DNA from: Variibacter gotjawalensis
GTDB lineage: Bacteria > Pseudomonadota > Alphaproteobacteria > Rhizobiales > Xanthobacteraceae
Reading direction: 5' to 3'
Length of the DNA stretch: 64,000 nucleotides
Assembly (NCBI RefSeq): GCF_002355335.1
Contig: NZ_AP014946.1
Coordinates: forward strand, 1,751,501-1,815,500
Positions 1,070 through 50,898 of the stretch are shown in pieces; positions within the stretch are counted from its first letter, which is position 1; every line of letters begins with the position of its first letter. A program made the position numbers and the translations under genes. The notes below the pieces were generated by a model that was not told where the DNA came from, did no database searches, and saw only the letters and a list, made by a program, of their open reading frames with translations.

Positions 1070-1222
1070 GTACGGAGCTAAGCCTCGGCTGGCCGATGAG
1101 TTCCAAACATGAGGAACTTTTCATGTAACCAACAAGTTAGGCGGGTGTCCAAACGCCGGACACCGCGATACCATCGTTCTCCGGCATAAGGAAATAACAA
1201 AAAGGCATCGAGGTCCGTCTGC

Positions 1223-2881
1223 GTGTCCACGACCACAACTGAACAAAACGCCGCCGCGCGAGACGCCGAAGCCAGATACCGTTTCCTCTTCGATGCAATC
1301 GACGAGGGATTCTGCGTCATCGAGTTTTTCGATGGACCGCACGGACCGCTGAGCGATTACCGACACATCGAAGCCAACGCGGCATACGCTCGGCATGCCG
1401 GCATCCCGAATGTCGTCGGCCAGAATGTGCGCGAGATGGTGCCGGGCGAAGCCGATGGATGGGTCGAACTTTACGGCGGTGTTCTGCGCACCGGCGAGCC
1501 AATCCGCTTTCAGCGCGAACTTGTCGCAACAGGGCGCCATCTCGAATTATCGGCGCTGCGCATCGAGCCGCCGAGCCTCAAACAAGTCGCTGTCCTCTTC
1601 CAAGACATCACGGCGCGCAAATCGGCAGAACTTGCGCTCGAGAAACTGAACGCAACGCTCGAGGACGAAGTCGAGAAACGTTCGCGCGATTTGCTGAGCG
1701 CCGAAGAAGCGTTGCGCCAGGCGCAGAAGATGGAAGCTGTCGGCCAGCTGACCGGTGGCCTCGCGCATGACTTCAACAATCTGCTCGCGGGCATTTCCGG
1801 CAATCTCGAATTGCTGCTGAAGCGGGTCTCGCAGGGCCGGGTTCACGAAATCGAACGCTACGCGATCGCAGCGCAAGGCGCGGTGCGCCGCGCCACAGCG
1901 CTCACGCATCGCTTGCTCGCCTTCTCGCGACGGCAGACGCTCGATCCGAAGCTCACGGACATCAATCGGCTTGTCTCCGGCATGGGCGATTTGGTCCGCC
2001 GCACGATGGGACCGGGAATCGAGATCGAAGTTGTCACAGCAGCGGGTCTGTGGACGACGCTGGTCGATGCCAATCAACTCGAGAATGCGCTGCTCAATCT
2101 CTGCATCAACGCGCGCGACGCGATGCCGGACGGCGGCAAGCTCACAATCGAGACTGCAAATCGCTGGCTCGACGAGCGTGCGGCGCGCGAGCGCGATCTC
2201 CCGCCCGGGCAATACATATCGTTGTGTGTTTCCGATAACGGCACCGGCATGACGCAAGAGACTGCATCGCGCGCGTTCGAACCGTTCTTCACGACGAAGC
2301 CGACCGGCCAAGGCACAGGCCTCGGCCTCAGCATGATATACGGTTTCGTGCGGCAAACAGGCGGCACCGTGCGCATCTATTCGGAAGACGGACAGGGCAC
2401 GATGGTGTGTCTCTATCTGCCGCGCAAGCACGGCGATCCTGTTACTGCGGACGAGATGATGCCGGCGGTAATCGAGCGATCATCGTCGAATGCGGAACAC
2501 ACCGTGCTCGTTGTCGATGACGAACCCACCGTGCGCATGATGATCGTCGAGGTGTTGGAAGAACTCGGCTTTGCGGCGATCGAGGCGGCGGATGGCCCTG
2601 CGGGTCTGAAGATCTTGCAGTCAGACACGCGGATCGATCTGCTGATCACAGACGTCGGGCTGCCCGGCGGCATCAACGGCCGTCAGATGGCGGATGCCGC
2701 GCGCGTCTCGCGGCCTGATCTCACGGTGCTGTTCATTACCGGCTATGCCGAAAATGCGGTCGTCGGTCACGGTCATCTCGAACCCGGGATGCACGTGATG
2801 ACGAAACCCTTCCCGCTCGATTTTCTCGGCGCCCGCGTTCAGCAGCTGATCAAAGCGGCTAATGAGGCGGCTCAAAGCTGA
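1223..2881 (+). CDS. Hybrid sensor histidine kinase/response regulator (PAS-HisKA-HATPase-REC)
   Basis: A 552-residue soluble hybrid kinase. Residues about 18-140 form a PAS-type sensor domain, followed by a short coiled coil (about 140-170). The H box has His182 in GGLAHDFNNLLAG. The ATPase domain shows an N box (NLCINARDAMPDGG), a G1 box (VSDNGTGM) and FEPFFTTKPTGQGTGLGLS. The C-terminal receiver starts at VLVVDDEP, with the phospho-acceptor Asp in LLITDVGLPG and the conserved Lys in VMTKPFPLD. No transmembrane segment is visible, so the sensed signal is cytoplasmic. The start is GTG at 1223, with a GAGGT-type ribosome site about 9 bases upstream. No partner regulator lies beside it, so it is an orphan; the ligand is unknown. 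Confidence 0.9.
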   Translation: MSTTTTEQNAAARDAEARYRFLFDAIDEGFCVIEFFDGPHGPLSDYRHIEANAAYARHAGIPNVVGQNVREMVPGEADGWVELYGGVLRTGEPIRFQRELVATGRHLELSALRIEPPSLKQVAVLFQDITARKSAELALEKLNATLEDEVEKRSRDLLSAEEALRQAQKMEAVGQLTGGLAHDFNNLLAGISGNLELLLKRVSQGRVHEIERYAIAAQGAVRRATALTHRLLAFSRRQTLDPKLTDINRLVSGMGDLVRRTMGPGIEIEVVTAAGLWTTLVDANQLENALLNLCINARDAMPDGGKLTIETANRWLDERAARERDLPPGQYISLCVSDNGTGMTQETASRAFEPFFTTKPTGQGTGLGLSMIYGFVRQTGGTVRIYSEDGQGTMVCLYLPRKHGDPVTADEMMPAVIERSSSNAEHTVLVVDDEPTVRMMIVEVLEELGFAAIEAADGPAGLKILQSDTRIDLLITDVGLPGGINGRQMADAARVSRPDLTVLFITGYAENAVVGHGHLEPGMHVMTKPFPLDFLGARVQQLIKAANEAAQS

Positions 2882-47805: not shown

Positions 47806-49053
47806 ATGAAGCTCCCCGTCGTCCGTTTGTTGATGGCGTCCGCCGCGTTGCTCGCGTTGACGCCCGCCGCTCAAGCACAAGACGCACAAGGCATTTCGCG
47901 CGAACGTCTCGCCCGCATCGCCCCTGTGATGAAGCAGGAAGTCGAGAAGGGCACATTCCCAGGTGCCATCACGCTGATCGCGCGCAACGGCAAGGTCGTG
48001 CATGTCGAGACGCACGGTTTCCAGGATGCCGCGAAGACGAAACCGATGAAGCGCGACACCATCTTCCGCATGGCGTCGATGACGAAGCCGATGACGACGG
48101 CCGCCGCGATGATGCTGGTCGAGCAGGGCGTCTTCAAGATCGAAGATCCAATCTCGAACCTGCTGCCCGAACTCAAAGACCTGAAAGTCGAGACGAAGAA
48201 AGCCGACGGCTCGACCGAGGACGTGACGGCGCGCCCGATCACGATCCAGGATCTGATGCGTCACACGTCGGGGCTTTTCTACGCGGCGCCGCCGCCGTCC
48301 GAGCGTCTCGCCAAAGCCTACAACGACGCCAACATCGAAGCGCGCCAGGAAGACATCGCGGCCGACGAAATGCTCAAGCGTCTCGGCGGCATTCCGCTCG
48401 CGCATCAACCGGGCACGAACTTCCATTACTCGATCTCGACCGACATCCTCGGTTTGCTGCTCGAGCGAGCGACGAAGAAGCCGCTCTCGCAAGTGCTCGA
48501 CGAGATGCTGATCAAGCCGCTCGGCATGAAAGACACTGCGTTCTGGGTGCCGGCCGAGAAGAAGGCGCGCCTCGCCGAAGTCACCGACGGCGATCCCGCG
48601 AAGCCCGGCTCACTGCGTTACTGCCTCGACGAAGCGACGATCAAGAAGAGCTACTTCAAGGGCGGCGCCGGTCTCTGCTCGACGATCGACGACTACTACA
48701 AATTCGCGCAGATGGTTGCGAATGGCGGCGAGTTCGGCGGCAAGCGCTATCTCTCGAAGAAGACCGTCGAGTTCATGCTCAGCGATCATCTGATCGGCAT
48801 GGGCGGCTCGACCTCCGCGTCGACCGGCCCGGGCTACGGCTTCGGCCTCGGCTTCGCGGTGCGCCGTCAGGACGGCTTCGGCTGGACCGCAGGCTCGACC
48901 GGCGATGCGATGTGGGCCGGCGCTTTCGGCACGATGTTCACCATCGATCCGCGTGAGAAGATCGTTGCGATCCAACTCTCGCAGGGCGCGACGACGCGCA
49001 TCCGCAGCCGCATGCTGTTCAAGAATCTCGTCTACGGCGCGATCGTGAAGTAG
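47806..49053 (+). CDS. Secreted serine hydrolase (beta-lactamase/EstB family)
   Basis: A 415-residue protein with a signal peptide (LLMASAALLALTPAAQAQ). The active-site SxxK motif is ASMTKPMTTAA (about residues 88-98), the tyrosine motif is YSISTDILG (about 206), and the third motif region is GWTAGSTGDAMWAGAFG. It belongs to class C beta-lactamase-like hydrolases, which include esterases and peptidases (EstB, EF0543-like, AmpH). The substrate is unknown, and a true beta-lactamase role is not implied. Confidence 0.9.
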   Translation: MKLPVVRLLMASAALLALTPAAQAQDAQGISRERLARIAPVMKQEVEKGTFPGAITLIARNGKVVHVETHGFQDAAKTKPMKRDTIFRMASMTKPMTTAAAMMLVEQGVFKIEDPISNLLPELKDLKVETKKADGSTEDVTARPITIQDLMRHTSGLFYAAPPPSERLAKAYNDANIEARQEDIAADEMLKRLGGIPLAHQPGTNFHYSISTDILGLLLERATKKPLSQVLDEMLIKPLGMKDTAFWVPAEKKARLAEVTDGDPAKPGSLRYCLDEATIKKSYFKGGAGLCSTIDDYYKFAQMVANGGEFGGKRYLSKKTVEFMLSDHLIGMGGSTSASTGPGYGFGLGFAVRRQDGFGWTAGSTGDAMWAGAFGTMFTIDPREKIVAIQLSQGATTRIRSRMLFKNLVYGAIVK

Positions 49054-49131
49054 GGCGCTGTCGCTGGCATCTTCGCCATAGCCCTGTCAGGGCCGTGACG
49101 ACAGAGAGTCGGTCGTGCGGCGTAACAGCAC

Positions 49132-49242
49132 GTAGCCCGGATGAGCGTCGCGCATCGCGCGCGCGCGACATCCGGGTCCTGCATCGACGTCGAGCGCCGC
49201 TCCCGGATATCGCTTCGGCTATGCCTCGCTCATCCGGCCTAC
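49132..49242. repeat. Family A dispersed palindromic repeat, copy 3
   Basis: Bounded by GTAGCCCGGATGAGCG and CGCTCATCCGGCCTAC, with inner ACATCCGGGT and CCCGGATATCGC. The core is almost identical to copy 1 at 18390-18490. Confidence 0.85.
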
Positions 49243-49269
49243 ACACTGTCGCCTCACCACCCACAGGTC

Positions 49270-49432
49270 GTCATCCCGGCCAAGCGATTAGCCCGAAGGG
49301 CTTATCGCGCGAGCCGGGACCCACGACTCCCTGCGGTGCGAGAAGGCGACGCGCGCCAAGGCAAACCGATCACAGGGATACGTGGGTCCCGGATAGCCTT
49401 GCTTGCTGTGCAAGCGCGGCTTCCGGGATGAC
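49270..49432. repeat. Family B dispersed repeat, copy 4
   Basis: Bounded by GTCATCCCGGCC and CTTCCGGGATGAC, with inner CGCGAGCCGGGACCCACG and ACAGGGATACGTGGGTCCCGG. Copy 5 at 49937-50104 is its closest relative, sharing CGCGCGAGCCGGGA and GATCACAGGG. Confidence 0.87.
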
Positions 49433-49471
49433 GCCGGAGGGTGCAGAATGGCAATTTCCAGAAAATATTCC

Positions 49472-49500
49472 TTGACATAAATTCCTATATCCCTCATATC
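49472..49500 (+). promoter_or_regulatory. Sigma-70-type promoter before the hairpin-rich region
   Basis: A perfect -35 TTGACA (49472-49477) is followed by a 17-base spacer and CATATC (49495-49500) as a weaker -10. The upstream segment is A/T-rich for this genome. It would start transcription near 49507. Confidence 0.55.
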
Positions 49501-49506
49501 AACCCC

Positions 49507-49870
49507 ACACCGGCGCGAGGGGATGTCTTCCGGAGACAGACCGTTAGGCAGCCGGTGGACGGCACCTGCGGCTGAGCTTGTGACTCAGTCCCGGGCGGTT
49601 GGGAGACATGGGCCGCCTGGCACTAAGACCAGGCGTCCGACGGTGGACCGGGCGGAAATCGGGACACTTTCGGGCTTTGGGCAATACCCACCGCAAGCGC
49701 GTCGGCGTTGCGTATGCCGCCGGTCGCGTGGAGAGCCGTGCGGAGCGCCGGTTGGCGTAGCGTCCCCCAAGGGACGCTGCCGTATCCGCGAGATACGGCT
49801 CGCATCGTTTCGCGCCCGCCGGCGCTCCGCTCCCCTCATCTTTTCGAGGAGAGCATCTCGCAAACCTCGG
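49507..49870 (+). ncRNA. Candidate structured noncoding RNA
   Basis: This is a run of inverted repeats downstream of a consensus -35. TGTCT/AGACA lies at 49524-49538, CAGCCG/CGGCTG at 49549-49574, and CGCCTGG/CCAGGCG (eight-base loop) at 49614-49635. GTCC/GGAC lies at 49635-49648. Two perfect eight-base hairpins stand back to back: AGCGTCCC/GGGACGCT (49759-49778) and GCCGTATC/GATACGGC (49779-49799). The open frame over it (49523-49903) is Arg/Pro/Ser-rich and unlike a protein. I recall similar sequence in Bradyrhizobium genomes annotated as short hypothetical proteins. The boundaries are estimates. Confidence 0.45.
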
Positions 49871-49936
49871 GGCGTCATCGCTCGCGAGAATGCACCGGGC
49901 TGAGCAGATTGTTTCGACGCTTCGCCTTGCTCTCGG

Positions 49937-50104
49937 CTGTCATCCCGGCCAAGCGAGCGCGTCGCGTGAGCGACCGGTCGCGCGAGCCGGGATCCACGTT
50001 TCCCTGTCGATCGATGCGGCTCTCGGCGCCGAGGCATCAACGATCACAGGGCTACGTGGATCCCGGACAGCCGCGCCGCTCCGCGACACGGCTTCCGGGA
50101 TGAC
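49937..50104. repeat. Family B dispersed repeat, copy 5
   Basis: Bounded by GTCATCCCGGCC and CTTCCGGGATGAC, with inner GCGCGAGCCGGGATCCACG and ACGTGGATCCCGG. It closes the 1.3-kb non-coding stretch on the right. Confidence 0.87.
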
Positions 50105-50178
50105 GGCAGAGTGTGGGGCGTGTGGAGACAAAGGACAGCAGCGCATCCGACACGGCGTAAACGCTATTGCACAACATT

Positions 50179-50317
50179 GAGTCAAACGGTCGCACACTGA
50201 TGTGTGGACGACTCAACCACGTGAATTGCGCGAATGGCGCAAATCACGGCCAATGCAATGCAACGAGACTCTAGCGGTCGGACTCGAACTCGCTATAGTC
50301 GAATCACCGAGTGATTC
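50179..50317. promoter_or_regulatory. Cluster of six GANTC methylation sites before the YbjN gene
   Basis: GANTC sites lie at 50179-50183, 50210-50214, 50267-50271, 50281-50285, 50301-50305 and 50313-50317. The last two form a palindrome, GAATCAC-CGA-GTGATTC. About one site per 256 bases would be expected at even base composition. The coding start is 81 bases further on. This suggests CcrM-dependent control. Confidence 0.6.
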
Positions 50318-50397
50318 GGGCCACTTAGCGGGCCTGCTCACGGCGGAGCAGCGGTGAGGCCACCGTTGCTCCGTACCACCGCGCACGTGGAGGCGGC

Positions 50398-50898
50398 ATG
50401 TCTTTGGTGGACGTTACCGAGCAGCGGGAGTCGCATCCCGTTGACGTCGTCGAACACCTTGCGGCGATTAAGGACTGGGCGTTCGATCGCTCCGGCGCTG
50501 ACGAGATCTCGATCTCGATCGCGGGTCGCTGGACCGACTATCACCTCTCTTTCACCTGGATGGATGAGATCGAATCGCTGCATCTCGCATGCGCCTTCGA
50601 TTGCCGTGTGCCGGAGCGCCGACGCGCCGAAGTGCTGGCGATGATCGCGCAGGTCAACGAGCAGCTCTGGATCGGTCACTTCGATCTCTGGAGCCGGGAC
50701 GGCGTGATCATGTTCCGCCACTCCATCATGCTGCCGGACGGCATCGAGCCGTCGCGCCGGCAATGCGAGCTTTCGATGGAAGCCGCGCTCGACGCATGCG
50801 AGCGTTACTACCAAGCCTTCCAGTTCGTCGTCTGGGCCGGCAAGTCGGCGCGCGAGGCGATCGACTCCGCGATGTTCGAGACGGCCGGCGAGGCTTGA
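50398..50898 (+). CDS. YbjN domain-containing protein
   Basis: A 166-residue soluble protein of the YbjN family (a type III secretion chaperone-like fold): DYHLSFTWMDEIESLHLACAF, RRAEVLAMIAQVNEQLWIGHFDLW, and RHSIMLPDG are typical. The role in the cell is not settled; in other bacteria YbjN affects motility, stress tolerance and exopolysaccharide. It precedes proC by 34 bases and has an unusual GANTC cluster upstream. Confidence 0.88.
   Translation: MSLVDVTEQRESHPVDVVEHLAAIKDWAFDRSGADEISISIAGRWTDYHLSFTWMDEIESLHLACAFDCRVPERRRAEVLAMIAQVNEQLWIGHFDLWSRDGVIMFRHSIMLPDGIEPSRRQCELSMEAALDACERYYQAFQFVVWAGKSAREAIDSAMFETAGEA

Follow-up and report, generated by a model that had tools for sequence, protein, structure and literature searches.

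A dispersed, structured RNA family of the Hyphomicrobiales with some copies directly upstream of a four-cysteine protein gene

The window, the whole 64,000-nucleotide stretch of Variibacter gotjawalensis DNA analysed here, contains a gap between neighbouring coding genes (49053-50398). A first-pass annotation had proposed a structured noncoding RNA at this position, from a promoter and a series of hairpins, three of them perfect. Both observations were exact: the two promoter hexamers and their spacer lie where they had been placed, and the stems of P6, P11a and P11b are without mismatch. These elements are parts of a single repeat copy located at 49459-49893 (Table 1). TTGACA-type boxes are present in most related copies, and a CTTATCCCC-type sequence is found in other families.

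Table 1. Features of the repeat copy in the window (window positions; strand as read).
Feature	Position	Strand	Comparative evidence
AT-rich conserved repeat start AAAATATTCC, 5' of the -35 box	49462..49471	+	Common to the five A copies; nearly so in the two B copies
-35 box TTGACA, inside the longer conserved CTTGACATAAATTCCTA	49472..49477	+	Found in 9/9 own-genome copies
-10-like CATATC	49495..49500	+	17-nt spacer; TATA-like hexamer near the same place in homologues
Structured RNA, subfamily A, solo copy, predicted ends	49503..49893	+	R1 66.6 bits; fold z -4.1; five A copies
P1 helix, CACCGGC (49508-49514) with GCCGGTG (49551-49557)	49508..49557	+	10/10 P1 pairs change on both sides (49 sequences)
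5' strand GAGGGGA, possible long-range pairing with TCCCCTC (49831-49837)	49517..49523	+	At least 6 bp possible in 43/43 copies
P1b hairpin GTCTTCCGGAGAC, within P1	49525..49537	+	Comparative alignments (18 and 49 sequences)
P9 long-range helix, ACGGC (49559-49563) with GCCGT (49735-49739)	49559..49739	+	Four sequence versions
P2, CCTG (49565-49568) with CGGG (49592-49595), around the P3 stem-loop (~49570-49591)	49565..49595	+	
P6 hairpin CGCCTGG...CCAGGCG, loop CACTAAGAC (relatives: CAYTACGAC)	49614..49635	+	Own-genome copies and relatives compared
P10 stem, 49740-49757 with 49811-49830, around two hairpins	49740..49830	+	98.4% paired in 43 sequences
P11a hairpin AGCGTCC...GGACGCT	49759..49778	+	Subfamily C: other sequence, hairpin kept
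P11b hairpin GCCGTATC...GATACGGC	49779..49799	+	Subfamily C has GCCGTAG...CTACGGC
Switch-like strand TCCCCTC and local 3' hairpin, imperfect in the window copy	49831..49852	+	Alternative helices in 40/43 copies
3' terminal hairpin CCTCGGGGCGTCATCGCTCGCGAG	49865..49888	+	Conserved in most subfamilies and genomes

A search of the organism's own genome, a single contig of 4,586,237 bases, recovered nine copies of this RNA repeat of about 400 bases. Five full copies that are 88-100% alike constitute subfamily A, namely the window copy, a 99% twin and three more. Shorter matches proved to be full-length divergent copies, which make up subfamilies B and C (two copies each). Likeness between the 99% twins A1 and A2 (L001 and L002) extends over approximately 275 bp of left flank with a REP cluster, which points to duplication of a larger piece. 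R1, a covariance model built on the 5' domain, detected the nine own-genome copies and 5-18 copies per genome in six related genomes. Matches were obtained in 132 of the 249 genomes surveyed from the GTDB family, where copies per genome are lower bounds because scoring stopped at 15 candidates per genome, and in 31 of its 47 genera. In an order-wide sample the RNA was present in 11 of 397 genomes, four other Hyphomicrobiales families included. Homologues therefore reach well beyond close strains, and one core type is carried by Afipia, Rhodopseudomonas, Tardiphaga, Pseudolabrys and Bradyrhizobium sp. NFR13, among others. A broader model, R2, detected no RNA outside the order among 385 class-wide genomes and matched the own genome only. 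Six copies (L149, L153, L162, L164, L167 and L129) carry a recurrent insert (~GCAGACTGCGTAAACTTGTCTGC) between P9 and P10. A guide-like variable segment 3' of the promoter in copy A4 was set aside; it differs in only one own-genome copy.

Folding of the 391-nt RNA gave -209 kcal/mol, which none of the dinucleotide shuffles equalled (z = -4.1). The complementary strand folds nearly as well (z = -3.8), so the fold energy indicates structure and does not give the strand; the RNA strand was assigned from the promoter and from two features described below, boxA and the gene that follows linked copies on the same strand. Homologues were also aligned segment by segment. Among 18 sequences, 88.4% of cells were paired as opposed to 74.5% after shuffling, and double-change cells numbered 76 versus 25.7; the covariation score was 0.454, with slid structures at 0.09-0.14. 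A8, the 49-sequence alignment, had been fitted to the model and so favours it; here 93.4% of cells were paired, double-change cells numbered 206 versus 64.7 after shuffling, and the score was 0.526 versus 0.236, with slid controls at 0.07-0.14. Because the sequences are kin, shuffling overstates significance throughout these comparisons. Alignment A3 and the test of P10 were not fitted to the model. In the latter, for which strands were extracted without the model, 0 of 500 shuffles reached the observed level of pairing, and pair 3 occurred as AT (30), CG (9) and TA (2). P9, which spans approximately 180 nt, is formed by ACGGC/GCCGT, TGCGG/CCGCA, GCGGC/GCCGC or GTGGC/GCCAC in different copies. 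All six pairs of P3 covary, with CTGAG/CTCAG replaced by CTGGG/CCCGG inside subfamily A, and broken pairs in the own A copies were fewer than under random placement of substitutions (P = 0.008, 0.002 and 0.010). Pairs thus covary in both alignments and in the P10 test.

An Arg/Pro/Ser-rich frame (49523-49903) is open in the window copy, and on that account the repeat could be protein-coding. However, subfamilies B and C have GAC or GCG in place of the ATG, the long frame is broken by frameshifting indels among the A copies, and it is base pairs that covary instead, which makes a coding repeat extremely improbable. The proposal of a structured noncoding RNA, conserved at the level of nucleotides and structure, was borne out by the homologues, the covariation and the lack of a conserved frame. 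Judged from these sequence comparisons, the RNA family is almost certainly genuine and under selection.

Some of the divergent copies lie directly 5' of an ORF of approximately 80-140 amino acids with four invariant cysteines (C-x4-C-R/K/T-R-x3-C-x6-8-C; CPxxxCRRARRC). In the own genome the linked copies are B1 (match at G000:C1:920402-920731, minus strand) and C1 (811619-811864, plus strand); in each of subfamilies B and C one copy is linked and the other solo, no linked A copy was found, and the window copy, like most copies, is solo. At L057 (copy C2), an AAGGA and an ATG remain 3' of the RNA and the frame is read without the cysteine motif; this copy is perhaps a decayed linked copy. A scan of 1.77 Mb, most of it chosen for RNA content, identified 13 ORFs with the motif, each of them immediately following an RNA on its own strand and most with AAGGAGA-like ribosome sites. 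Because of that choice of sequence, a profile of the protein alone was run on 297 genomes of the order. Thirteen hits were returned, three of which look false (stops, or the wrong frame of another gene). At nine of the ten credible hits the best match of R1, used unfiltered, lay upstream on the same strand. Five of these matches were strong (97.9, 73.1, 55.7, 29.8 and 27.0 bits; E<0.01), with three of the five loci (B1, C1 and L322, which is the L309 locus) already known from the RNA side, and four were weak (20.5, 20.4, 19.0 and 16.4 bits; E 0.1-0.4), so that for them position counts as much as score. R1 gave about 10 bits near the three false hits, and unfiltered R1 detected no upstream RNA at the remaining credible hit, L320.

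Orthologous linked loci had dN/dS values of 0.17-0.49 and colinear flanks, and linkage of the RNA to the four-cysteine protein gene was found in several Hyphomicrobiales families. Placement upstream of a single gene family on the same strand holds for the linked copies and not for the solo copies. These observations suggest that the linkage is very probably real. Comparison thus showed an RNA structure under selection, copies that are dispersed, and a linked form positioned directly upstream of the four-cysteine protein gene. Nothing significant was found for the protein in Pfam, NCBIfam, PHROGs, PADLOC or PDB, it had no match in plasmid and phage collections, and its structure model was of low confidence (pLDDT 59) and gives no fold.

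In ToxIN-like systems the RNA comes first and a small protein gene next, with a hairpin between them. The same succession of RNA, hairpin and small protein gene in the linked copies would be consistent with a type III toxin-antitoxin-like or abortive-infection-like pair, in which the upstream RNA neutralises the protein and solo RNAs act as extra antitoxin. However, the element contains no tandem direct repeats, the protein of about 110 amino acids is built on a four-cysteine core and matched no ToxN-like toxin in Pfam or PADLOC, and the plasmids and phages searched yielded no match; such a pair is distinctly unlikely. The AbiF system is reported to be RNA-regulated (PMC12373285). Type III and AbiF-RNA pairs likewise place an RNA upstream of a small protein gene, yet the present family differs from them in lacking tandem repeats and a known toxin family and in being chromosomally multicopy.

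Of 76 copies, 37 carry a boxA motif, TGTTTGA[CA]A (consensus GGCTGTTTGA[CA]A), 383-540 nt downstream of the point where R1 begins, as against a background of 1 in 1,000,642 flank bases. Carriers are mostly solo copies of four genomes (G196, G205, G080 and G041). Records of Bosea and Methylobacterium show a matching boxA-like site 187-201 nt 5' of 16S; the motif is thus shared with rRNA leaders, but here it lies 3' of a structured RNA and not 5', and no rRNA gene was recognised after it. The protein-linked copies examined yielded no boxA, and the window copy has no intact one.

Near the 3' end of the RNA, the CCCCTC strand has two possible partners, the 5' GAGGGG and a local 3' strand, and the two helices are mutually exclusive. 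The local partner changes in sequence while pairing is kept, and the 5' strand hardly varies. The strands of the long-range alternative are mostly invariant and lend it little covariation support; shuffles reached its observed pairing 299 of 500 times, and a helix so nearly invariant is hardly tested by this comparison. In the window copy the local 3' helix has only 4 bp. The local 3' hairpin is without a U-run.

Neighbours of 60 copies, called with a simple purpose-written gene caller, placed the copies between genes in every orientation (+E+ 17, -E- 13, +E- 19, -E+ 11). The largest class lies between convergent genes, and no neighbour recurred throughout the 60. With orientation so mixed, the idea that every copy is a cis-leader was rejected. 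Presence of the element also varied between relatives. Beside one locus G196 and G214 have it, and G171, G266, G238 and G205 lack it. A second locus has the element in G196 and G266, with none in the G214 gap. No clean empty site was definable at these polymorphic loci, where the flanks are too variable.

Inspection of neighbours recognised no transposase, reverse transcriptase or integrase beside the copies, the 3' ends of copies are ragged, no target duplication was found, and linked loci are colinear between relatives. These results argue against a selfish element, in which the RNA would be the replicating part of a non-autonomous unit, its factor encoded elsewhere, and the protein a cargo or helper in some copies. 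That reading would nevertheless fit the presence and absence at orthologous loci, the mixed orientation, the copies at contig ends, and the close likeness of copies inside one genome, as in G196, where several receive similar scores, although gene conversion could account for the last of these. We consider a mobile origin unlikely. An origin from phages or plasmids was rejected, as neither DNA nor protein matched the plasmid and phage collections, and pattern matches on viral contigs contained no RNA by R1.

The copies are dispersed and palindrome-rich, adjoin REP clusters, and fold well on both strands, all of which would fit a DNA-level palindromic repeat of the REP/MITE type in which RNA structure is incidental. 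Yet the long-range helices P1, P9 and P10 covary over an RNA-length unit with a promoter, the unit has a polarity in common with the downstream gene and boxA, and no terminal inverted repeat was found in this polar unit of approximately 430 bp, whereas REP/MITE elements are short palindromes or are bounded by such repeats. A palindromic DNA repeat is accordingly highly unlikely.

The explanation that we favour, at a probability of roughly 0.4 for the whole and from sequence evidence, is that the RNA is bound by the small protein, and is a switchable leader where the two are linked and a free-standing RNA where it is solo. The solo copy of the window, with its own promoter, would be transcribed as a free-standing RNA of approximately 390-450 nt, predicted to fold into P1/P1b, P2/P3, P6, the long-range P9, P10 with its pair of hairpins, and a 3' end with two alternative ways of pairing. 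The basic four-cysteine protein may bind this RNA. In linked copies the RNA would be the 5' leader, with the protein or the folding itself choosing between CCCCTC paired to the 5' GAGGGG and the local 3' hairpin, and this choice would tune read-through into the protein gene as a putative autoregulation. Such a binding-and-switch mechanism is proposed tentatively, at somewhat less than even odds. Autoregulation is ruled out as the role of the window copy, which is solo, as most copies are. Solo copies may provide this RNA in trans, to serve as a ribonucleoprotein scaffold or to act as a protein sponge, and the rRNA-type boxA after many solo copies elsewhere could load Nus factors. A more far-reaching version is a large bacterial RNA-protein machine of a new class: an RNA of about 400 nt with long-range pairing and its own four-cysteine, perhaps zinc-binding, protein would have been amplified in many genomes into a free-standing gene set with an rRNA-type boxA, and would act in trans on a basic cellular process. 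This version is doubtful.

Among known systems, autogenous leaders of the ribosomal-protein type share with the linked copies a structured 5' RNA before a small basic protein gene and alternative 3' helices, but the present family is about 400 nt long and has many gene-less copies in any orientation to their neighbours. HEARO and the IscB-IsrB omega RNAs are structured, have many standalone copies and are associated with a gene in some. Unlike them, the present family had no Rfam HEARO match (window region, E up to 5; eight homologous loci, E up to 1), its downstream gene encodes a four-cysteine protein of about 110 amino acids and not a nuclease, and no guide segment was identified; IscB or IsrB was not noticed among the first residues of the neighbours of the 60 copies. 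OLE has dedicated partner proteins. Together with ROOL and GOLLD (PMC12286853), it resembles the RNA described here in being hundreds of nucleotides long, intricately folded and its own transcription unit, whereas the window RNA has no Rfam match, is dispersed and multicopy, has been seen only in the Hyphomicrobiales, and has another partner protein.

Large structured RNAs are rare and often have fundamental roles once understood. The dispersed multicopy repeat, the protein-linked copies and boxA go beyond what the first-pass annotation had seen and make this a candidate new RNA-protein system. The RNA occurs in roughly every second genome sampled from a family with the culturable Rhodopseudomonas, Afipia and Tardiphaga among its members, the linked small protein lends itself to a simple binding test, and RNA function is directly testable.

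The suggestion that the element is undescribed holds for Rfam 15 and the keyword-searched open literature. No Rfam 15 family exceeded its gathering score, and nothing relevant was returned for the window region at E up to 5 or for eight homologous loci at E up to 1. Matches to MIR918, BASRCI408, BASRCI27 and cow-rumen-3 were rejected as chance or REP hairpins. In L014, the weak BASRCI408 match comes from a REP hairpin (~1156-1226, minus strand) within the 3' end of an RNA copy. The main texts of PMC5082802, PMC3927594, PMC3091675, PMC11109978 and PMC7143759, searched by keyword, yielded no passage that describes the RNA, and the family is apparently undescribed; an earlier description is possible in the 2012 sRNA work on Bradyrhizobium and Rhodopseudomonas.

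Br-REP1, Br-REP2 and the BjsR sRNAs of Bradyrhizobium belong to the same lineage, and in the main text of PMC5082802, where the window RNA is not described, they are short palindromes or other sRNAs. The RNA of the window is flanked by REP-like clusters at 49269-49433 and 49939-50105 (GTCATCCCGGCCAAGCGA ... CCGGGATGACG), which are near-copies of each other and unrelated to the RNA. A further imperfect inverted repeat (ACAGCACGTAGCCCGGATGAGCG ... CGCTCATCCGGCCTACACACTGT) lies in the gene-free region at 49125-49249.
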